From a virus: a stretch of DNA of 24,406 bases. Each line of letters starts with the position of its first letter. Position 1 is the stretch's first letter. Of this stretch, positions 171 through 19,160 are shown piece after piece. The position numbers and the translations under genes were made by a program. The notes under the pieces were generated by a model. That model was not told where the DNA came from. It did no database searches and saw only the letters and a list, made by a program, of their open reading frames with translations. The stretch covers positions 1 through 24,406 of the IMG/VR virus record IMGVR_UViG_3300010883_005856; one strand, written 5' to 3'.

Positions 171-716
171 ATGAAGATAGCAATTACAGGACACAGTGCA
201 GGCATAGGTCAGGCACTAGCAAAACAATACGAAAATCGTGGTCATGAGATTGTAGGTCTCAGTAAACGACACGGCGATAATATACGAAATATTCCAAAGA
301 TTATAGAAAAAATTAAAGATTGTGACATGTTCATTAACAATGCACAAAGCGGATACGCACAAACAGAATTATTATTTGAAATATGTAAAATTTGGAGAGA
401 TATTCCTAACAAACATATTATTAATATATCAACTATGATGACACTTAATCCTACAGTAGACGAAGCATCAATGATTGAATATAAAAATCAAAAACAAGCA
501 CTGGAATCTGCTCATTGGGAACTAGCACACAAACAATGGTGGCCACAAATGGTATTAGTTAAACCTGGAGAAGTTAAGACAGGAGAATGGAGCGGTCCTA
601 AAGCAGTAGATGTTGATAAGTGGGCAGAAAAAGTTGTCGATACCTTAGAAAGAATTGATCCAGCAATGAAAGTGTATGAGTTAAGTTTAGGGGTTGATTA
701 TACTAATGGATCCTAA
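171..716 (+). CDS. Short-chain dehydrogenase/reductase (SDR) family protein
   Basis: The 181-aa product begins with a Rossmann nucleotide-binding motif, TGHSAGIG at residues 6-13, matching the SDR pattern TGxxxGIG. NNA near residues 56-58 matches the conserved NNAG-type motif. Ser87 (in NISTMM) with Tyr104 and Lys108 (YKNQK) matches the catalytic Ser-Tyr-x3-Lys set, so the protein is probably an active NAD(P)H-dependent oxidoreductase. It is shorter than the usual ~250 aa, consistent with a compact phage version. The substrate is unknown; sugar or nucleotide-sugar chemistry is plausible because glycan-type genes follow. Its end overlaps the next start by 11 nt, so it is probably co-transcribed with the radical SAM gene. 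Confidence 0.85.
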   Translation: MKIAITGHSAGIGQALAKQYENRGHEIVGLSKRHGDNIRNIPKIIEKIKDCDMFINNAQSGYAQTELLFEICKIWRDIPNKHIINISTMMTLNPTVDEASMIEYKNQKQALESAHWELAHKQWWPQMVLVKPGEVKTGEWSGPKAVDVDKWAEKVVDTLERIDPAMKVYELSLGVDYTNGS

Positions 717-1854
717 AGAATATTTAACTAACAAAAAGTTTTGTCCTATACCTTGGACAGGATTTATGTATTTCCCAGGCGGAGATGTACTAAACTGTAT
801 ACGTAGTCAACAACCTATAGGAAATTTAAAAGATAATTCAATACACGATATATTGAAAGAGAATACAAAGACTAAACAGAACATGCTTGACCAGAAAGAC
901 GGAATAGGGTGTAATGTATGTTATGACCTCGAAGGTGACAAGAAAGGTTATGACATGATCAGTGATCGTATCTTTTATCTTAAAGAATTAAAGACTGTTA
1001 ACAATACACTGTATGATCAAGTGGATAATTTTGATCTGCACACGATAGATATACGTTGGTCAAATGTGTGCAATCATGCTTGTGTATATTGTGGACCTGA
1101 ATATTCTAGTAAATGGGCAACTGAACTAAAGATTAAAGTAGCAGAACCTACACCGGAGCGTGTAGCAGAACTTAAGAAGTTAGTGTTTGATAATGCACAT
1201 CAACTTAAACATGTTTATATGGCAGGCGGCGAACCTTTGCTAATGAAAGAAAACTTAGAGTTATTAGAAATACTTCTGAAAAAGAATCCTGATGTCAATT
1301 TGCGAATTAATACAAATCTCAGTAAAACAGGAACAAAAGTATTTGATAAAATTATGGAGTTTAAAAATGTACATTGGACTGTTAGTATTGATACAATTGA
1401 AGAACAGTTTGAATACATACGTTACGGTGGTGTATGGAAAGACTTTAATGAAAACTTATTACAGTTAGTTGGAAAAGGACACAAAGTAAGTTTTAATATG
1501 TTATGGTATGCTATGAATTTTAAATCAATATTTGACACTGTTGACTATCTTAAAGAACTAGGATATCATAATAATAGTTTTATAATAGGCCCGTTGCTTG
1601 GTCCTGATTGGCAAGATGTTAGACAGTTATCAGATAACGTCTTAGAGGAACTAACAGTAGAACTCAATGACAGGATTAAAAAACAACCAGGATTTCTATT
1701 AGAAGATAGTTATCAGAATATGTTAACACACTTAACACACCCATTTAAACGTGATGTAGAAGCATTAGAAATTAATTTAAACATGTTAGATATGCGTAGA
1801 GGACTAGATAGTAGATTAGTATTTCCGGAGATGTATAAATGTTTACCAAACTAG
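706..1854 (+). CDS. Radical SAM protein with N-terminal twitch-like domain (copy 1)
   Basis: The radical SAM cluster motif CNHACVYC (CX3CX2C) lies at residues 122-129, followed by GGEP, the usual SAM-amino-group motif. Ahead of it is a small domain with Cys13, Cys31, Cys69 and Cys72 (C...C...CxxC) and an IGN-type motif, as in SPASM/twitch domains that hold an auxiliary Fe-S cluster; here it is N-terminal instead of C-terminal. This matches the phage and marine twitch radical SAM family. The reaction is unknown. I chose ATG 706 over TTG 694 because AGGGG at 689-693 is well spaced only for 706. The protein is 382 aa. It overlaps the SDR gene by 11 nt and the sulfotransferase-like gene by 16 nt. 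Confidence 0.9.
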   Translation: MDPKEYLTNKKFCPIPWTGFMYFPGGDVLNCIRSQQPIGNLKDNSIHDILKENTKTKQNMLDQKDGIGCNVCYDLEGDKKGYDMISDRIFYLKELKTVNNTLYDQVDNFDLHTIDIRWSNVCNHACVYCGPEYSSKWATELKIKVAEPTPERVAELKKLVFDNAHQLKHVYMAGGEPLLMKENLELLEILLKKNPDVNLRINTNLSKTGTKVFDKIMEFKNVHWTVSIDTIEEQFEYIRYGGVWKDFNENLLQLVGKGHKVSFNMLWYAMNFKSIFDTVDYLKELGYHNNSFIIGPLLGPDWQDVRQLSDNVLEELTVELNDRIKKQPGFLLEDSYQNMLTHLTHPFKRDVEALEINLNMLDMRRGLDSRLVFPEMYKCLPN

Positions 1855-2462
1855 ACGACATATTATTTCCAAACAAAGTTGAGGTCATTGACTACAACGG
1901 CAAATACATTTACCCTATTTTTAAAAATGCAAGCTCAAGCCTATTAGAATATGCAAAAGATAATAGTTATAAAGTTATTTTTAATGAGCAAATAAGAAAA
2001 TTAAACACCATTGAAGTTTTTATTCGAGAGCCCAAAGAAAGATACGTTAGTGGGGTATCTACATATTTGTTTAATAATAGTTTAGATATTACTGCAATAA
2101 CACCTGGTATATTTTTAGATAGACATTACTTGCCACAATTACATTGGTTAATAAATTTAATGAGATATATGGATGCTGATAGTAAAATACATTTTCATAG
2201 CTTGGAAATGATTAAAGAATTTACTCCATTACAAATAATGCCTGAGAAAGTTAATATAACAGATACCAGCATAGCCGACCATCAAGAATTAGAGATGTAT
2301 ATGAGATTAGACAATTTAATACTTAATCAACTAACAGGGCAAAGTTGGACACCTAATCAGATAATGACACATCTAATGACACAAGACCCAATGGCCTATT
2401 TTACAGTTATTGGTAAAACACAAAAACTAGCAGAGGTAACACATGTTTTGCCCACGCCTTGA
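1839..2462 (+). CDS. Sulfotransferase-like protein
   Basis: The 207-aa product carries two hallmarks of PAPS-dependent sulfotransferases. A 5'-phosphosulfate-loop-like segment, PIFKNASSS, lies at residues 26-34 with Lys29 available for PAPS. A 3'-phosphate-binding segment, IREPKERYVSGVSTYL, lies at 62-77 with Arg63, Arg68 and Ser71 in the R-x-P-x2-R-x2-S pattern. The C-terminal half is divergent, so the acceptor cannot be predicted; carbohydrate sulfotransferases (Sulfotransfer_2 type) are the nearest model I can name. No signal peptide or membrane segment is seen, so it should act in the cytoplasm. It lies between two radical SAM genes and overlaps both (16 and 20 nt), which suggests one pathway. 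Confidence 0.75.
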   Translation: MFTKLDDILFPNKVEVIDYNGKYIYPIFKNASSSLLEYAKDNSYKVIFNEQIRKLNTIEVFIREPKERYVSGVSTYLFNNSLDITAITPGIFLDRHYLPQLHWLINLMRYMDADSKIHFHSLEMIKEFTPLQIMPEKVNITDTSIADHQELEMYMRLDNLILNQLTGQSWTPNQIMTHLMTQDPMAYFTVIGKTQKLAEVTHVLPTP

Positions 2463-3465
2463 TCACTTTGCTCGATTAAATGAAGATAGTACAGTCAGTC
2501 GTTGCGGGCATATGGTAAATGCCCCTCGTTTTACTTCGTATAAAGAAATGGAAGACAGTGACTGGGCAAAACAGATAAAAGACACTGAAGAATGGCCTGC
2601 TGAATGCCAACGATGTCAGACAACTGAATTAGCGTCAGGAACCAGTATTCGAATTGATAGTATACGCAGAGACAAGCTGTTAAAGACATTCAAAGATGAC
2701 TATCTCATTATAGGTGGTGTCTTAGACAACGTATGCAACTCAGCATGCCAGTTTTGCTACTCTGGGCTGTCAACGACTATCGGAAAATTAGAAAAGAAGG
2801 TGATTAAATTAGAAAACGTAACAGCATTTGATAGTCTGCCAAAGGATCGCATTGTTGAATTAGATATTAACGGTGGAGAACCTAGCTATAGTAAGAACTA
2901 TGCTCGACTGTTAGACAACTTACCACCAAATGTTAAGGTAGTTAGAATAAACACCAACGGAACAACAGTAATTAAACAGATAGAAAAACTACTAGAACGT
3001 AAGATAAAAGTCATAGTAACATTAAGTTTTGACGGTACTACACAAGTACATGAGTATGCTCGCTTTCCAATTAAGTGGACAAAATGGGATCAGGTTGTTA
3101 GAAAGTATAAACACTTGGCAGACAACCATAAAAATTTAGAACTTGGCTTTTGGAGTACGCTAAACGTTTATACTATTAACGACTTAGAAAATATGTTAAG
3201 GTACGCAGATCAAGTAGGAATTCCTTTTAGTTACGGAGTACTTGAATACCCCGAACAAATGAATATAAAGTACGAAAATGAGTTTACCAAACAGGCACGC
3301 AAAAAATTTGAGAAATCGGACATATTGTTACTCAAACAACTTGCACCTTTGGTTGCATCAAGTTATAATAATACAAACGAACTAGTAGAGTTTATAACTA
3401 AGCAAGATCAAGTACGAAAAATTAGTTATAAAGACTACTACACAGATATAAATTTAGGAGAATAG
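2443..3465 (+). CDS. Radical SAM protein with N-terminal twitch-like domain (copy 2)
   Basis: The 340-aa enzyme has CNSACQFC (CX3CX2C) at residues 98-105 and GGEP further on. The first 60 residues hold Cys3, Cys21, Cys55 and Cys58, the same C...C...CxxC arrangement as in copies 1 and 3, so an auxiliary Fe-S cluster is likely. Cys3 is almost at the N-terminus, so the start at ATG 2443 leaves little room for a later start. It overlaps the sulfotransferase-like gene by 20 nt and ends 1 nt before uvsX; the uvsX Shine-Dalgarno AGGAG (3456-3460) lies inside its last codons. The substrate is unknown. Sequence divergence from the other two copies suggests separate substrates and not redundancy. Confidence 0.9.
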   Translation: MFCPRLDHFARLNEDSTVSRCGHMVNAPRFTSYKEMEDSDWAKQIKDTEEWPAECQRCQTTELASGTSIRIDSIRRDKLLKTFKDDYLIIGGVLDNVCNSACQFCYSGLSTTIGKLEKKVIKLENVTAFDSLPKDRIVELDINGGEPSYSKNYARLLDNLPPNVKVVRINTNGTTVIKQIEKLLERKIKVIVTLSFDGTTQVHEYARFPIKWTKWDQVVRKYKHLADNHKNLELGFWSTLNVYTINDLENMLRYADQVGIPFSYGVLEYPEQMNIKYENEFTKQARKKFEKSDILLLKQLAPLVASSYNNTNELVEFITKQDQVRKISYKDYYTDINLGE

Positions 3466-3466
3466 C

Positions 3467-4591
3467 ATGGCCAAACCCTTTGACGCAAGTAAATTTAGAA
3501 AAAGCATTACTAAAAGCATTCCAGGAATGAGTTTAGGATTCAATGACCCAACAGATTGGGTTTCAACAGGTAACTATGCCTTAAACTATTTGATTAGTGG
3601 TGACTTTACTAAAGGCATTCCGTTAGGTAAGGTAACAGTGTTTGCTGGAGAGTCTGGAGCAGGTAAGAGTTACATCTGTTCAGGTAACATTGTTAAAAAT
3701 GCACAAGATCAAGGTATATTTGTTATCTTGATTGACAGTGAGAATGCACTTGATGAGAAATGGCTACATGCCTTAGGTGTTGACACAACAGAAGAGAAAC
3801 TACTTAAATTGAACATGGCCATGATCGATGACGTAGCTAAAACTATTTCTGAATTTGTAAAAGAATATAGAGACATGCCAGCTGAAAATAGAGCTAAGGT
3901 ATTATTTGTTATTGATTCGTTAGGTATGTTACTAACTCCTACAGACGTTAACCAGTTTGAAGCAGGTGATATGAAAGGTGATATGGGTCGTAAACCTAAA
4001 GCATTAACATCACTAGTACGTAATACTGTTAACATGATCGGTGCACTTAATATTGGGATAGTATGTACTAATCACACATACGCTTCACAAGATATGTTTG
4101 ATCCAGATGATAAAATATCAGGTGGACAAGGTTTTATTTACGCATCAAGTATTGTAGTTGCTATGAAGAAACTTAAACTGAAAGAAGACGAAGGCGGCAA
4201 TAAGATATCTGATGTTAGAGGTATTAGGGCTGGGTGTAAGGTAATGAAAACACGTTATGCAAAACCATTCGAAGGTGTACAAGTTAAAATTCCTTATTCA
4301 ACAGGTATGAGCCCTTACAGTGGACTAGTTGACATGGCTGAAAAAGCAGGCTTGCTAGTTAAAGACGGCAACAGATTACGCTTTGGTGTTGCTGATAGTG
4401 CTGACGAAATTAAAATGTTTCGTAAAGCCTGGGAACTAAACGAAGATGGCTGTCTAGATAAGATTATGGCAAGTTACGGAAAGATAGCAGAAGAGATAAG
4501 TATTGAAGAAATAGAAACTATGGACGATACTGCTGTTGAACAACAAGCACCAGATACCGTAGTTAAATCTTCAACTACAAAGGAAAAATAA
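3467..4591 (+). CDS. uvsX: UvsX, RecA-like recombination protein
   Basis: The 374-aa RecA-fold strand-exchange protein is the T4 UvsX type. Walker A GESGAGKS is at residues 61-68, Walker B is VLFVIDSLGML, and there are clear UvsX signatures: NHTYASQDMF, a GGQG segment and the C-terminal PYSGLVDMAEKAGLLVK, close to T4 PYSGLLDMALELGFVVK. It forms ATP-dependent filaments on ssDNA and drives recombination-dependent replication and repair in the infected cell. A good Shine-Dalgarno, AGGAG at 3456-3460, supports ATG 3467. The tail is rich in acidic and Thr/Ser residues. Genes for a small acidic protein and a UvsY-like candidate follow within 1.6 kb, which fits a recombination module interrupted by a radical SAM gene. 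Confidence 0.97.
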   Translation: MAKPFDASKFRKSITKSIPGMSLGFNDPTDWVSTGNYALNYLISGDFTKGIPLGKVTVFAGESGAGKSYICSGNIVKNAQDQGIFVILIDSENALDEKWLHALGVDTTEEKLLKLNMAMIDDVAKTISEFVKEYRDMPAENRAKVLFVIDSLGMLLTPTDVNQFEAGDMKGDMGRKPKALTSLVRNTVNMIGALNIGIVCTNHTYASQDMFDPDDKISGGQGFIYASSIVVAMKKLKLKEDEGGNKISDVRGIRAGCKVMKTRYAKPFEGVQVKIPYSTGMSPYSGLVDMAEKAGLLVKDGNRLRFGVADSADEIKMFRKAWELNEDGCLDKIMASYGKIAEEISIEEIETMDDTAVEQQAPDTVVKSSTTKEK

Positions 4592-4592
4592 T

Positions 4593-4865
4593 ATGTCAGA
4601 ATCATTAGTATCAGCCGCTGAAGTATGGTTAGCTGTTAAAGATCATGTCTCAGATGAAAAACAAGCCGCAATGGATGTTGTTAATGCACTAATTGACAAC
4701 CTAGGTGTTGATGGTGAAGCCATTAAATCTAGTGATCTTGGTCAGGATAAAGATATCAAACATGCGTTGTCAGCCTATGTGTTAGATGAGGTAGAGGAAG
4801 ACGACGGTTTAGACACTTGGGGCGATGAACAAGACGACAGCGATGAAGAAGAAGACGATTACTAA
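4593..4865 (+). CDS. Small acidic protein of unknown function, downstream of uvsX
   Basis: The 90-aa protein follows uvsX by 1 nt, with Shine-Dalgarno AAGGA near 4580-4584, and abuts the next start at 4866 without a gap. Residues 1-50 look like an ordinary folded helical segment. The last ~25 residues are dominated by Asp and Glu (EEDDGLDTWGDEQDD and onward to EEEDDY). Such acidic tails in phage proteins often mimic DNA or bind basic partners; a role in handling UvsX or ssDNA-binding protein is possible from position. A peptide-precursor role for the adjacent radical SAM enzyme was considered and is not supported by any recognisable leader/core arrangement. I do not recognise the family. Confidence 0.8.
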   Translation: MSESLVSAAEVWLAVKDHVSDEKQAAMDVVNALIDNLGVDGEAIKSSDLGQDKDIKHALSAYVLDEVEEDDGLDTWGDEQDDSDEEEDDY

Positions 4866-6140
4866 ATGGAAAAAAAGTATTTTCCAATTAAAACAGCCAC
4901 TGCGTGTCTAGCAAAATGGTCATTTAGTAAAATAGCACTACATTTGGGGGTAACTTCTAGCTGTCATAGAGTAATTAATCATAAATTTGACCTAGAAACT
5001 TTTAACTTTCATAATACTCCGGAAAAAATAGAACAAAGAGAAACAATGTTACAAGGCGAGTGGCCTGATGGCAAACCTAACCCTGCAATTGAAACTACAT
5101 GTAAGCAGTATTGTGGAAAATTTGAAAAGAATAGCGGTGCGAGTGACAGACAGTTCTTTAACAGCCTACCTAATTTGTATCCCGATGAGCTCGACGATGA
5201 CCCAACACTAACTCAAGTAGATCCAACAATATTAGAAGTTTATATAGATAATACTTGTAATTTAAAATGTGTTTACTGTGTCCCTGAATTAAGTTCTGGA
5301 ATAGATACAGAAATGAAAAAGTTTGGACGCTTTGAAAAACATAATTTAGTATTAGAAAGTAAATTTAAACATCCAGATAATTTTAGTCATATTCAAGAAA
5401 AGTTTTGGGAATGGATGCACCTTAATGTACATAAATTGAAAAGACTACAACTGTTAGGAGGCGAGCCATTCTATCAAAAACAGTTTGATCAATATTTAGA
5501 GCTGTTTGAAACTATTCCTTGTCCTAATCTAGAACTTGAAATAGTTAGTAATCTAATGATAAAACCAGCTAAGTTAAAAGGCTATATGGAACGTGTAAAG
5601 AAACTAATAGCTGAGAAGAAGCTGGGTAGATTAGACATGCACTGTTCGATTGATTGTTGGGGACCACAACAAGAGTTTACCAGATATGGAATAGAGTTGG
5701 TACAATGGGAAGAAAACTTTAAATATCTAATCAGTGAACGATGGATTAAATTAAATATCAATGGAACTATCTCGGTATTAACAATTAAAACAATACCGGG
5801 GTTACTCAAAAAATTAAAAGAGTGGTCTAAGGATAGAAAAATAGAACACTATTTTACACAAGTTTTTTTTCCAGACTACATGGCTCCTGACATATTAGGC
5901 GCAGATGAATTTAGCAACGATTTTAAAACTATTTTAAATCTTATGGAAACAGACAGTTATCATGGTCCTAGTGCAAAAGAGCATTTTACTGCTATAACAA
6001 ATAATGTCAAAAACAGTAGACTTGATAAACAAAAGGTGTTACAATTATTAACATACCTTGATGAATTAGATAGACGCAGGGGCACAGATTGGAAACTGTT
6101 ATTTCCATGGTTAGAGGAGTATAGAAATGTGGTACAATAA
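4866..6140 (+). CDS. Radical SAM protein with N-terminal twitch-like domain (copy 3)
   Basis: At 424 aa this is the longest of the three radical SAM enzymes. CNLKCVYC (CX3CX2C) is at residues 131-138, GGEP follows, and HCSIDCWG resembles the later core strand of this family. The N-terminal domain holds Cys14, Cys33, Cys79 and Cys83; the last pair is spaced Cx3C instead of CxxC as in the other copies. The end resembles copy 1 strongly (DxRRGxDWxLLFPE-like closing segment), which indicates common descent. It is inserted between the small acidic gene (0-nt gap) and the UvsY-like gene (14-nt overlap), so it is translated as part of the recombination operon. The substrate is unknown. Confidence 0.9.
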   Translation: MEKKYFPIKTATACLAKWSFSKIALHLGVTSSCHRVINHKFDLETFNFHNTPEKIEQRETMLQGEWPDGKPNPAIETTCKQYCGKFEKNSGASDRQFFNSLPNLYPDELDDDPTLTQVDPTILEVYIDNTCNLKCVYCVPELSSGIDTEMKKFGRFEKHNLVLESKFKHPDNFSHIQEKFWEWMHLNVHKLKRLQLLGGEPFYQKQFDQYLELFETIPCPNLELEIVSNLMIKPAKLKGYMERVKKLIAEKKLGRLDMHCSIDCWGPQQEFTRYGIELVQWEENFKYLISERWIKLNINGTISVLTIKTIPGLLKKLKEWSKDRKIEHYFTQVFFPDYMAPDILGADEFSNDFKTILNLMETDSYHGPSAKEHFTAITNNVKNSRLDKQKVLQLLTYLDELDRRRGTDWKLLFPWLEEYRNVVQ

Positions 6141-15996: not shown

Positions 15997-16025
15997 TTGA
16001 CTAATAATTTATAATTTGTTATAAT
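15997..16025 (+). promoter_or_regulatory. Sigma70-type early promoter (leaderless)
   Basis: TTGACT (15997-16002), a 17-bp spacer and a perfect TATAAT (16020-16025). The predicted start is seven bases after the -10 box, at 16032, exactly the A of the ATG of the small downstream gene. Confidence 0.85.
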
Positions 16026-16031
16026 GTTTAC

Positions 16032-16220
16032 ATGGCATATAATTATAACTTAGAAAAAGTCAATGCAGATTTATATGATGATATAGATCAGCTAGCCCTA
16101 GACGCATCAGGAATGTTTGAACAAAAGCTACAGGAGTTAGGTATTGCATTACCAGATGATGAACTTGAACAATTATACGATTCAATGAGAACGTTAGCAT
16201 TAAATTCGGTTGACCAATAA
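16032..16220 (+). CDS. Small acidic early protein of unknown function
   Basis: The 62-aa protein is acidic and helical (EQKLQELGIALPDDELEQLY). It has the shape of small early phage proteins that bind and redirect host machinery, but I recognise no family. A consensus-like sigma70 promoter ends 6 nt before its ATG, so its mRNA should be leaderless, and no Shine-Dalgarno is present. It precedes a second strong promoter that reads its last codons. Timing and promoter strength suggest expression immediately after infection. Coding status rests on the promoter, the intact frame and normal phage codon use. Confidence 0.75.
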   Translation: MAYNYNLEKVNADLYDDIDQLALDASGMFEQKLQELGIALPDDELEQLYDSMRTLALNSVDQ

Positions 16221-16238
16221 ATCCAAAACTGCTATAAT
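16210..16238 (+). promoter_or_regulatory. Sigma70-type early promoter for the AAA ATPase gene
   Basis: TTGACC (16210-16215), a 17-bp spacer and TATAAT (16233-16238). Transcription should start near 16245, giving a 32-38 nt leader with a G-rich ribosome-binding site (GGGGG, 16270-16274). The -35 overlaps the last codons of the small acidic gene. Confidence 0.88.
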
Positions 16239-16282
16239 AGTATTTGAAAGTTAGGAATTAATCATTTACGGGGGTAATGAAT

Positions 16283-17089
16283 ATGGTAGCTAAAACTATA
16301 AAATTCAAAAAAGAAACAGATGAGCAAATCATCGAGCGTATTGGCAAACGTTTTACTATATTAGATGACATGACTAAAGCCGCAATTTGTGGTGATATAA
16401 GAGCAATGATCGTTGTAGGCCCTCCAGGGGTTGGTAAGTCATATGGTGTTGAAAAACAATTAGAAAAAGCAAGTATGTTTACAGAAGTTGCATCAAGACC
16501 TAAACAATATGATGTTGTTAAGGGTGCAATGAGTGCCATTGGTTTATACTGTAAACTATTCAACTACAAAGAAAAAGACAACGTGCTAGTGTTTGATGAT
16601 TGTGACTCAATACTACAAGATGAGTTATCATTAAACATTCTTAAAGCGGCGTTGGATTCAAAGAAAACAAGAAAGATTTGTTGGAACACTGATTCATACA
16701 AGTTACGTAATGAAGGTGTACCTGATACGTTTAACTTTGAAGGGTCAGCTATTTTTATTACTAACTTAAAGTTTGAAAATGTTAAAAGTAAAAAACTACA
16801 AGATCATTTAGAAGCAATACAATCTAGATGCCATTACTTAGATCTTACACTTGACACTGAAAGAGATAAACTATTACGTATCAAACAGATTGCAGGTACT
16901 GGTGCTCTGTTTCAAGACTATGATTTTAATGGTCACGAGCAAGAAGAAATGTTAAACTTTTTACAAGACAATGCAACTATGGTAAATGAACTTAGTTTAC
17001 GTATGGCACTTAAGATTGCCGATCTTAGAAAAGTATCTAATACAAATTGGCAAGAACTAGCAAGAGCAACCTGCATGAAGCGAAGATAA
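16283..17089 (+). CDS. AAA-family ATPase
   Basis: Walker A GPPGVGKS is at about residues 46-53, Walker B VLVFDDCD at about 101-108, sensor 1 is in SAIFITNLKF, and a possible arginine finger lies in QSRCHYLDL. It is 268 aa from ATG 16283, which is 8 nt after GGGGG; ATG 16277 (two residues longer) is too close to that site. The protein is shorter than T4 gp44 and lacks its clamp-loader signatures, so I call it a general AAA+ ATPase of the kind carried by many marine T4-like phages, with unknown remodelling target. It has its own early promoter and is followed by a terminator, so it is a single-gene unit. Confidence 0.85.
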   Translation: MVAKTIKFKKETDEQIIERIGKRFTILDDMTKAAICGDIRAMIVVGPPGVGKSYGVEKQLEKASMFTEVASRPKQYDVVKGAMSAIGLYCKLFNYKEKDNVLVFDDCDSILQDELSLNILKAALDSKKTRKICWNTDSYKLRNEGVPDTFNFEGSAIFITNLKFENVKSKKLQDHLEAIQSRCHYLDLTLDTERDKLLRIKQIAGTGALFQDYDFNGHEQEEMLNFLQDNATMVNELSLRMALKIADLRKVSNTNWQELARATCMKRR

Positions 17090-17109
17090 TTTGTTCGTTT
17101 CGTGTTCAT

Positions 17110-17136
17110 AAAGGGTGTTGATGGTTGACACCCTTT
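17110..17136 (+). terminator. Terminator hairpin that contains the -35 box of the next promoter
   Basis: AAAGGGTGT (17110-17118) pairs perfectly with ACACCCTTT (17128-17136) over 9 bp with a 9-nt loop, followed by CCCCTTTT (17137-17144). It lies 21 nt after the AAA ATPase stop. The -35 hexamer TTGACA (17125-17130) of the uvsW promoter is partly in the loop and partly in the 3' arm. Confidence 0.75.
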
Positions 17137-17153
17137 CCCCTTTTATATATACT
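17125..17153 (+). promoter_or_regulatory. Sigma70-type early promoter of uvsW
   Basis: Perfect -35 TTGACA (17125-17130), 17-bp spacer, -10 TATACT (17148-17153). The expected start is about 17160, next to the uvsW ATG at 17161, so the mRNA is probably leaderless. A TATAAT at 17155-17160 exists but would need a 24-bp spacer. Confidence 0.8.
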
Positions 17154-17160
17154 ATATAAT

Positions 17161-18618
17161 ATGAAGCAAGCATTATTACACATTAAAGATGAAGTCAACG
17201 TAAAAATTGAAGGACTTGAACTGGATGTCCGCAAGAAGCTAGTTGACATGTTCAAGTTTGAAGTTCCAGGTGCACGATACATGCCCGCAGTTCGGTTGGG
17301 CAGATGGGACGGAAAGGTTGGGTATTTTCAGCTAGGAGGTAGTACCTATATCAATTTGTTAGATGAGATATTACCGGTACTTGAACAATATAACTATGAG
17401 GTCGATCTTGAAGATTACAGGGACTACGAAAGAACGTTTAAGTTTACTCAGGTCAAAGAAGATAGTTATAGCCATTTAGTCTGGGATCCAACACATCCAA
17501 TAGCAGGACAACCAATAATGCTTAGAGATTATCAAGTTGAGATAATTAATAAGTTTTTATCTAACCCGCAATGCTTACAAGAAATAGCAACAGGTGCTGG
17601 TAAGACCTTAATCACAGCAGTGCTAAGTCATAGTTGTGAACAGCACGGTCGTACAATAGTTATAGTACCAAACAAAAGTTTAGTTACACAAACAGAAGCT
17701 GATTACATCAACATGGGATTAGATGTTGGTGTGTACTTTGGCGACCGTAAAGAGTTTGGAAAGACACATACTATATGTACATGGCAAAGTCTAAACATTT
17801 TGCTTAAAGGATCAAAAGCACATGCTGTAGATATCACAATTGATGAGTTCCTACAAGATGTTGTCTGTGTTATGGTTGACGAAGTACACATGGCCAAAGC
17901 AGATGCATTAAAAACTTTGTTAACGGGAGTTATGTCTCAGGTACCAATTCGTTGGGGACTAACTGGAACGATACCTAAAGAAGCATATGAACGTATGAGC
18001 TTACGTTGTTCAATAGGCGATGTTATAGGTAAACTGTCAGCAAACGAATTACAACAGGAAGGGGTGCTTGCTAACTGTCATGTAAATGTAGTGCAGTTAG
18101 TTGATCATGCAGAATATACTTCGTATCAGGATGAACTTAAATATCTATTAGAGACCAAAGACCGTATGAAGTATATGGCTGACCTAATTACTAAGATTAG
18201 AGCAAGTGGGAATACTCTGGTGCTAGTGGATAGAATTGCTCCAGGTCAGGCGTTAACTGAACTAATTAAAGATGCAGTGTTTGTATCAGGGGCTACTAAA
18301 GCCAAAGACCGAAAGGATGAGTATGATGAAATTGCAACAATGGACAGTAAAGTTATTATTGCCACTTATGGCGTTGCCGCTGTGGGTATTAATATCCCTC
18401 GTATTTTCAATCTTGTTCTTGTTGAACCTGGCAAGAGCTTTGTTAGAGTCATACAAAGTATAGGTAGGGGAATTAGAAAAGCAGAAGACAAAGACTTTGT
18501 GCAGATATGGGATATAACATCAACATGTAAGTTTGCCAAACGACATTTAACACAACGTAAGAAGTTCTATAGAGAAGCGAACTATCCGTTTGAAGTTGAA
18601 AAAATAGAATGGAAATAG
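17161..18618 (+). CDS. uvsW: UvsW, SF2 DNA/RNA helicase
   Basis: The 485-aa T4 UvsW-type helicase has an N-terminal domain with RWDGKVGYF (the UvsW DNA-binding fold), helicase motif I ATGAGKT at residues 143-149, motif II DEVH at 240-243, motif III GLTGTIPK, motif V region ATYGVAAVGIN and motif VI QSIGRGIRK at 432-440. It unwinds D-loops, R-loops and branched DNA and helps move T4 replication from origin-driven to recombination-driven forks. Translation begins at ATG 17161; an in-frame TTG at 17125 is the -35 box itself and cannot be the start. It overlaps nothing upstream, and the next promoter begins 3 nt after its stop. Confidence 0.97.
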   Translation: MKQALLHIKDEVNVKIEGLELDVRKKLVDMFKFEVPGARYMPAVRLGRWDGKVGYFQLGGSTYINLLDEILPVLEQYNYEVDLEDYRDYERTFKFTQVKEDSYSHLVWDPTHPIAGQPIMLRDYQVEIINKFLSNPQCLQEIATGAGKTLITAVLSHSCEQHGRTIVIVPNKSLVTQTEADYINMGLDVGVYFGDRKEFGKTHTICTWQSLNILLKGSKAHAVDITIDEFLQDVVCVMVDEVHMAKADALKTLLTGVMSQVPIRWGLTGTIPKEAYERMSLRCSIGDVIGKLSANELQQEGVLANCHVNVVQLVDHAEYTSYQDELKYLLETKDRMKYMADLITKIRASGNTLVLVDRIAPGQALTELIKDAVFVSGATKAKDRKDEYDEIATMDSKVIIATYGVAAVGINIPRIFNLVLVEPGKSFVRVIQSIGRGIRKAEDKDFVQIWDITSTCKFAKRHLTQRKKFYREANYPFEVEKIEWK

Positions 18619-18621
18619 TTC

Positions 18622-18650
18622 TTGACAAACACGCCACAGCAACTTATAAT
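18622..18650 (+). promoter_or_regulatory. Consensus sigma70 early promoter after uvsW
   Basis: TTGACA (18622-18627), a 17-bp spacer and TATAAT (18645-18650), both perfect. Transcription should start near 18657, three bases before ATG 18660. This promoter rules out the earlier in-frame ATG at 18609 for this transcript. Confidence 0.93.
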
Positions 18651-18659
18651 AAGGGTACT

Positions 18660-19160
18660 ATGCAAATACTTACATTAGAAAACACAAAGTACGATCTAGA
18701 CACACTGCCTGACGAAATAGATGATATGCGTTTTAGCATATTAGATAACAGTGATCCAAGTAATCCAGATTATCATTGGATACCGTTAATCTTCTTAGAG
18801 AGTTTTAATAGCCCAGCATTGGTATTAAAGATAGGTGAGCATACTATTAAGATGCCTGTAGATTGGCAAATATTAATTGGTGAACCAGATGTGGGTGATC
18901 TAGAAGTATTACCACTAACGTCAATTAATGATCGAGGGTTTAGAGCATTTCAGTTTAATAGTTTAACAGACTTTAGACCAAGTTTCCTAGACATAGAAAT
19001 TGTAGATGTCTATCAAGATGTTTCGTGGTACTCACCAAAATTAAAAAATGGGCAGTTACTAGCAATACCTTTAGAGGACGGGCCTACTCCTAAATGTTGT
19101 TATTTTGTCAAAGACATAAGTCGTAACTGTGAGATTGTTAATTACACTTTATCATTCTAA
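18660..19160 (+). CDS. Conserved-type phage protein of unknown function
   Basis: The 166-aa protein starts at ATG 18660, directly behind the consensus promoter, giving an almost leaderless mRNA with no Shine-Dalgarno. It is acidic and mixed alpha/beta, with strands VLKIGEHTIKMPVDWQILIG and FLDIEIVDVYQDVSW and the closing KCCYFVKDISRNCEIVNYTL. I recognise no catalytic motif. The position after uvsW, heading a run of four conserved-looking genes, suggests an early replication or takeover role. It ends in a TAATG junction with the next gene. An upstream ATG at 18609 would add 17 residues that overlap the -35 box and is rejected. Confidence 0.82.
   Translation: MQILTLENTKYDLDTLPDEIDDMRFSILDNSDPSNPDYHWIPLIFLESFNSPALVLKIGEHTIKMPVDWQILIGEPDVGDLEVLPLTSINDRGFRAFQFNSLTDFRPSFLDIEIVDVYQDVSWYSPKLKNGQLLAIPLEDGPTPKCCYFVKDISRNCEIVNYTLSF

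Follow-up and report, generated by a model that had tools for sequence, protein, structure and literature searches.

Sigma70-type promoters of two designs, one predicted to yield leaderless mRNAs, in a clade of uncultured T4-like jumbo phages

The classic leaderless mRNA of a phage is that of the lambda cI gene. In the sections of the published reports drawn on here, cI is named as leaderless (PMC9031893), most middle and late transcripts of the Thermus phage phiYS40 are leaderless, with initiation factor IF2 raised and IF3 lowered (PMC3594737), and phage transcripts are described as often leaderless in an account of phage AR9, whose own leaders measure 26–491 nucleotides (nt) (PMC5312081). 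On the bacterial side, again within the sections drawn on, a −10 element adjoining the open reading frame (ORF) is a common design for leaderless mRNA in Deinococcus-Thermus (PMC12340547), 171 leaderless mRNAs are recorded in Sinorhizobium meliloti (PMC3616915), and 375 in Caulobacter crescentus, where they are translated about equally to leadered ones (PMC4117421). Here we describe a virus record of 24,406 bases, the fragment of an uncultured phage (IMG/VR record IMGVR_UViG_3300010883_005856; the whole stretch is called the window below), in which three sigma70-type promoters stand almost directly before start codons, among them that of the helicase gene uvsW, and a fourth precedes a leadered ATPase gene.

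With lambda cI the window has in common a phage mRNA without a leader, here a predicted one; cI is a single repressor gene of a temperate phage, whereas here the promoter design recurs at many genes. The likeness to phiYS40 is that of a phage with many leaderless mRNAs, here predicted ones, that would still be translated. Its leaderless class is middle and late, whereas the present promoters are host-sigma70-like, stand beside conserved leadered genes with a Shine-Dalgarno (SD) site, and are known from sequence alone. In Deinococcus-Thermus, as here, a −10 element a few base pairs before the ORF gives a leaderless mRNA, although those genes are cellular and need no −35 element, while the window belongs to a phage clade and has a near-consensus −35 at all four sites. 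Caulobacter and Sinorhizobium likewise have, next to a majority of leadered mRNAs, some whose transcription start (+1) is the A of the ATG; theirs are bacterial and mapped by experiment, whereas ours are predicted from sequence for a phage. Leaderless phage mRNAs are therefore already known, and a clade-wide layout with two modes appears, tentatively, to be new: the matches listed in our search of open-licence literature held no report of leaderless promoters in T4-like jumbo phages, and the main text of a 2026 jumbo-phage review does not contain the word "leaderless".

The sequence-only reading of the window had placed sigma70-type promoters with exact 17-bp spacers 6, 7 and 9 nt before the ATGs at 16032, 17161 and 18660. 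These coordinates are borne out, and the three, together with a fourth promoter, are the four top scorers among 58 promoter-like sites between 12 and 24 kb, each agreeing with the sigma70 consensus at 11–12 of 12 hexamer letters across a 17-bp spacer. Transcription is taken to begin 7 nt after the −10 element; under this rule the predicted +1 positions, counted from the three ATGs, are 0, −1 and −3, as had been proposed. The features concerned are the following.

15997..16025, + strand: sigma70-type promoter TTGACT-17-TATAAT, start-adjacent, 6 nt to ATG 16032; predicted +1 is the A of the ATG
16032..16220, + strand: 62-amino-acid (aa) ORF without family match, predicted leaderless; found in 5 viral contigs, 87–100% identical
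16210..16238, + strand: sigma70-type promoter TTGACC-17-TATAAT, leadered, upstream of the ATPase gene
16283..17089, + strand: ATPase gene, PHROG_1250; the listed ORF opens at 16277, but 16283, with GGGGG upstream, is the likelier start
17110..17136, + strand: terminator-like hairpin whose 3′ half holds the −35 of the uvsW promoter; sequence kept in the relative L231/L238
17125..17153, + strand: sigma70-type promoter TTGACA-17-TATACT, start-adjacent, 7 nt to the uvsW ATG 17161
17161..18618, + strand: uvsW helicase gene, predicted leaderless with a 0–1 nt leader; Pfam UvsW_N, ResIII, Helicase_C
18622..18650, + strand: sigma70-type promoter TTGACA-17-TATAAT, a 12/12 match, 9 nt to ATG 18660
18651..18656, + strand: AAGGGT, weak SD-like stretch between the −10 and ATG 18660, upstream of the predicted +1 (18657)
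18660..19160, + strand: PHROG_11279 gene (g18660; function not assigned), predicted leader of ~3 nt; family alignment begins at the 18660 Met

As judged by comparison with relatives, the starts at 16032, 17161 and 18660 are real, and each is an ATG. That of uvsW coincides with the ortholog start, and PHROG_11279 begins at the 18660 Met rather than at 18609, where a longer ORF could open, most orthologs aligning from 18660. The first ortholog loci compared contained no relative of the 62-aa ORF, its five viral contigs having come from a later search; since the codons that differ between the window and L231 are synonymous in 15 cases and nonsynonymous in 8, and since five viral contigs carry it, this ORF behaves as a gene.

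The arrangement would be explained if the T4-like jumbo phages of this uncultured clade used host-type sigma70 promoters in two designs. In the first, a leader of ~20–40 nt or longer would carry an SD site. In the second, ~6 nt would separate the −10 element from the start codon, RNA polymerase would begin transcription at the A of the ATG or 1–3 nt from it, and ribosomes would bind the 5′-terminal AUG of the leaderless mRNA directly. The window would then hold the second design three times (16032, uvsW and 18660) and the first once (the ATPase gene). We put the probability of this explanation, with leaderless mRNAs at the three starts, at roughly 0.72.

By protein identity, the window phage is related to T4-like jumbo phages. 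A megablast of the right half of the window against named phages gave zero matches, and relatives were therefore sought at the protein level; the window uvsW shares 55% identity with its counterpart in Sinorhizobium phage Phosso, 51% with the one in Agrobacterium phage Atu_ph07 and 50–51% with those of PA5oct-like Pseudomonas phages; the genomes of all these phages measure ~285–490 kb. The ortholog set comprises 80 IMG/VR contigs among the matches listed, with uvsW identities of 71–85%. Its rows are not fully independent, the pairs L004/L005, L015/L016, L056/L058 and L067/L072 each being identical in uvsW. Closer relatives were reached through the 62-aa ORF and have uvsW proteins 94–98% identical to that of the window; L231/L238 is a close relative whose DNA has diverged from it. 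Eight isolates were also compared: Phosso, Atu_ph07, PA5oct, 121Q, Vibrio 2.275.O, XaC1, BF and Munch.

The total of promoter-like sites between 12 and 24 kb is not above that of shuffled sequence (58 vs. 50.9, sd 6.9), as would be expected if the hexamers arose by chance or from base composition in upstream DNA rich in A+T; information therefore resides only in the top-scoring sites and in where they lie. We measured the distance from each sigma70-like site (≥10/12) to the next ATG downstream that begins a frame of 50 codons or more. In the window alone, four starts lay at 5–9 nt and one at exactly 6 nt (maximum of 2 for each in 60 permuted controls). When the window was pooled with nine related contigs, promoters occupied two distances, a narrow mode at 6 nt (27 cases, with 52 at 5–9 nt) and a broad mode at 20–39 nt (122 cases, peaking at 30–32 nt), with 15 cases in total at 10–16 nt between them. 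By these counts, 52 against 122, leaderless starts are no majority of the phiYS40 kind. In the nine contigs without the window, where every qualifying ATG was counted, 26 lay at 6 nt and 48 at 5–9 nt, whereas 200 permuted-hexamer pairs gave on average 1.76 (at most 8) and 8.0 (at most 20), respectively. As permuted pairs yield fewer sites (a mean of 363, vs. 662 for the real pair), the excess at 6 nt shrinks from fifteenfold to about eightfold when reckoned per site. Eight of the 37 sites that match at all 12 letters had such a start at exactly 6 nt. Taken singly against 60 permuted pairs, the counts at 6 nt exceeded the permuted maximum (in brackets) in G002 with 7 (3), G003 with 5 (2), G004 with 7 (1) and the small contigs with 4 (2). 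This position-specific excess, together with conservation in diverged orthologs, makes chance or composition a hardly credible source of the pattern.

The sequence-only reading had proposed comparing promoter-to-ATG distances in relatives, and here the distances proved conserved. In L231/L238 the gaps remain 6, 7 and 9 nt despite altered spacer letters: the −10, the GTTTAC after it and the ATG of the 16032 promoter are identical in L231 while its spacer has diverged, the uvsW gap stays at 7 nt in L238, and the 18660 promoter of L238 has an 18-bp spacer yet retains the 9-nt gap. A second TATAAT (17155–17160), which abuts the uvsW ATG in the window, is not retained in L231/L238.

Over the wider set, we ran a promoter matrix, derived solely from 119 leadered promoters of related contigs, across the DNA upstream of the orthologous starts, window included, at a threshold passed anywhere in 60 positions by 5% of shuffled sequences; starts with their best site at 6–9 nt are called leaderless below, in the predicted sense. 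At uvsW, 22 of 79 scored starts were of this class (12 at 6 nt, 8 at 7 nt) and 4 were leadered; L024, whose match begins at residue 12, and L076, with too little upstream DNA, were dropped. At g18660, scored without L013 and L038, the class held 38 of 79 starts (32 at exactly 6 nt), with 5 leadered. On the uvsW protein tree, the window and the two rows closest to it have both genes leaderless, and one clade of 39 rows, with full support, counts 30 leaderless g18660 and 17 leaderless uvsW starts. Parsimony on this tree requires at least 15 state changes for uvsW and 9 for g18660. Inspection by eye found no start-adjacent promoter at uvsW or g18660 in any of the eight isolates, a promoter-like site lying ~25–30 nt upstream instead at Atu_ph07 uvsW and PA5oct g18660, nor in nine phage-like loci from bins of unrelated organisms. 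The predicted leaderless layout is thus to be read as a property of the phage clade, not of the window alone. For the leaderless claim itself, spacing conservation and the two-mode distances support a leaderless or near-leaderless geometry, with the +1 positions still predicted.

The start-adjacent mode is also gene-specific. The ATPase gene, probably starting at 16283 and not at 16277 (SD duplex of −10.0 kcal/mol at 16283), was scored in 37 cases; its promoter lies 30–67 nt upstream of the start in 32, none was detected in 5, and no best site falls at 4–9 nt in any of the 37. Since it is leadered in 32 of 37, the start-adjacent layout is specific to certain genes, and the earlier view that the fourth promoter has a leader, so that the short distance is no regional property, held in the window and beyond it. 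This scoring, which skipped 20 rows, picked as ATPase start whichever candidate ATG had the strongest SD, so that the median SD energy of −7.4 is biased and is not independent evidence. The −35 of the ATPase promoter is built from the final codons of the 62-aa ORF (16210–16220 in the window). A promoter-like site before an internal in-frame ATPase ATG in 5 of 37 cases (L038, L047, L059, L068 and L072) was set aside, because in four contigs its letters also encode a stretch shared by orthologs; in L047, L059, L068 and L072 it would yield a leaderless short form and may be a coding coincidence. Other genes predicted to be leaderless encode a UvdE endonuclease (by Pfam in G002, an endonuclease PHROG in G003 and a similar N-terminus in G004), gamma-glutamyl cyclotransferase (G004, G005), and DnaJ and an exonuclease (G001); several more have no family match.

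SD content separates the two designs clearly at g18660 and more weakly at uvsW. Pairing of −4.5 kcal/mol or stronger was found at 6 of 38 leaderless g18660 starts, against 19 of 36 without a promoter and 4 of 5 leadered ones; the corresponding figures at uvsW are 1 of 22, 14 of 53 and 0 of 4. Within the window, the earlier statement that none of the three starts has an SD site stood for 16032 (+1.0 kcal/mol) and uvsW (+3.6 kcal/mol), and it held only in part for 18660, where AAGGGT pairs weakly (−4.0 kcal/mol). Close relatives retain AAGGGT or AGGAGT between the −10 and the ATG of g18660, the latter in L001 and L002 (−6.8 kcal/mol). Because AAGGGT lies upstream of the predicted +1, only transcripts reading through from uvsW could use it, and the predicted transcripts of 16032, uvsW and 18660 are without SD only if that predicted +1 holds. 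The 18660 site in the window may therefore also serve uvsW read-through RNA, giving one start two uses.

These observations bear on another explanation, in which translation proceeds mainly from longer RNA, read through or initiated upstream, the start-adjacent promoters are minor, and their closeness reflects crowding into short gaps. It would account for the many orthologous starts without a promoter, a good share of them with SD, and for the retention at 18660 of AAGGGT or AGGAGT, which only the longer transcript would contain. The gaps are indeed short: from the uvsW stop to the next ATG, leaderless g18660 cases have 31–41 nt in 26 of 38, more than 600 nt in 11 and 7 nt in one, and 31–41 nt is about the size of a promoter plus a 6-nt discriminator, so that such a gap holds hardly more. 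Crowding nevertheless fails to explain the exact 6 nt seen in 32 of the 38 leaderless g18660 cases or the trough at 10–16 nt. Moreover, a strict terminator hairpin precedes 9 of 22 leaderless uvsW starts, 2 of 53 without a promoter and 0 of 4 leadered ones, and would cut read-through. We regard read-through as the main source of translation as somewhat unlikely.

In the strict terminators at leaderless uvsW genes the T tract runs into the −35, which begins 3–5 nt past the stem; the stricter rule did not list the window hairpin at 17110..17136. From the gap sizes and this overlap, the terminator adjoins the promoter and the promoter the start codon. The reason for the second design is most likely compactness combined with independent expression, given that 26 of 38 gaps measure 31–41 nt and that uvsW terminators often run into the −35.

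Several results weigh against the two-design explanation. No promoter was detected at 53 of 79 uvsW and 36 of 79 g18660 starts, and with 53 of 79 lacking one the start-adjacent arrangement cannot be essential to uvsW. In G018, whose uvsW is 96% identical to that of the window, another gene occupies the place where the leaderless promoter would be; as it is missing there, the putative leaderless uvsW promoter is dispensable. The SD-like stretch at 18660 and the lack of SD at the four leadered uvsW starts count on the same side, as do two distance counts: the 6-nt count of G001 (3; permuted maximum of 5) is not significant by itself, and isolate 121Q has 10 sites at 5–9 nt against a permuted maximum of 9. 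Only 1 of these ten remains at 11/12, and 1 lies at 6 nt. The other isolates scanned had 0 (PA5oct), 1 (Atu_ph07; 400 of 490 kb) and 2 (Phosso; 400 of 469 kb, permuted maximum of 3) at 6 nt, and T4 and HTVC008M, with 50 kb each scanned, had zero starts at 5–9 nt.

Two relatives have rearrangements at uvsW. The G018 gene (L240:10275-12311) encodes a 678-aa molybdopterin oxidoreductase and lies directly before uvsW, overlapping its start by 4 nt. In a near-identical relative (G019, L242:12448-15263) uvsW is broken by intein-like halves; the N piece has Hint and sub-cutoff Intein_splicing matches, and a separate endonuclease ORF (TnsA-like N-terminus, NUMOD3) lies between the halves. We take this arrangement to resemble a "fractured gene" split intein.

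The early timing first proposed for these promoters is plausible, the sites being host-sigma70-like. T4 uvsW is a late gene, and the sites could instead be late or middle phage promoters read by something other than host sigma70, with the genes not early. A T4-type late sigma factor is encoded in three of five related contigs searched (G001, G002 and G020) and in four isolates searched; it was not found in the fragments G003 and G004. Its presence in G001, G002 and G020 also fits early timing of the host-sigma70-like sites and is thus compatible with it. A TTGACA-like −35 is not expected in T4-type late promoters, and one at 16–18 bp is part of the conserved pattern here, which makes the late or middle assignment very unlikely.

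IF3 discriminates against leaderless starts. Both IF3 domains are encoded in seven of the eight isolates (Phosso, Atu_ph07, 121Q, Vibrio 2.275.O, XaC1, BF and Munch) and were not found in PA5oct; neither was found in the leaderless-rich G001 (328 kb) and G002 (343 kb) or in the fragments G003, G004 and G020, and G005, searched for the C domain only, gave no IF3_C match. All three bins with distant relatives (G022–G024) have IF3_C matches, which may lie on phage or on cellular contigs. The leaderless set might thus be conceived as a second translation channel, adopted where the phage brings no IF3 of its own, an idea we hold to be decidedly doubtful. PA5oct has neither trait, and contigs may be incomplete. 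Indeed, PA5oct, T4 and HTVC008M combine no IF3_C match with no 6-nt peak in the parts scanned, so that the relation is one-way at best, and one or two evolutionary events may account for the pattern. Because the predicted leaderless genes include those for the UvdE endonuclease, an exonuclease and uvsW, repair genes might through such a channel still be translated at times of limited SD-dependent initiation.

A phage initiator tRNA as a general helper was rejected. Initiator tRNAs are marked by a C1-A72 mismatch and three G-C pairs in the anticodon stem; a G002 tRNA-Met (L116:4409-4483) has the initiator-like mismatch without the GGG/CCC anticodon-stem pairs. None of the 3 tRNA genes of G001 is for Met, and no tRNA gene was found in G003, in G020 or in the 140 kb of G004 that were read. 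G002 (L115, L116; 343 kb) carries 31 tRNA genes and a permuted transfer-messenger RNA (tmRNA) of betaproteobacterial type with the tag ANDEVYALAA, and the tmRNA type is a host hint for G002 only. Elsewhere in the window, an Rfam search gave zero matches, and the left half holds UvsX-like and UvsY-like genes, with three genes having radical-SAM-domain matches (694–6137) around the UvsX-like gene and ahead of the UvsY-like one.

If the two-design explanation is true, these phages would choose gene by gene between translation from an SD site and from a 5′-terminal AUG, the route being set by promoter position alone and kept over long divergence within an uncultured jumbo group. That leaderless early mRNAs would alter the competition of these genes, uvsW included, for ribosomes during takeover, as the sequence-only reading proposed, is a hypothesis. 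The clade would then offer a natural comparative system for the persistence of leaderless messages and would allow better annotation of start sites in its genomes, and the vague question of what leaderless mRNAs are for would become testable in phages with or without an IF3 of their own.

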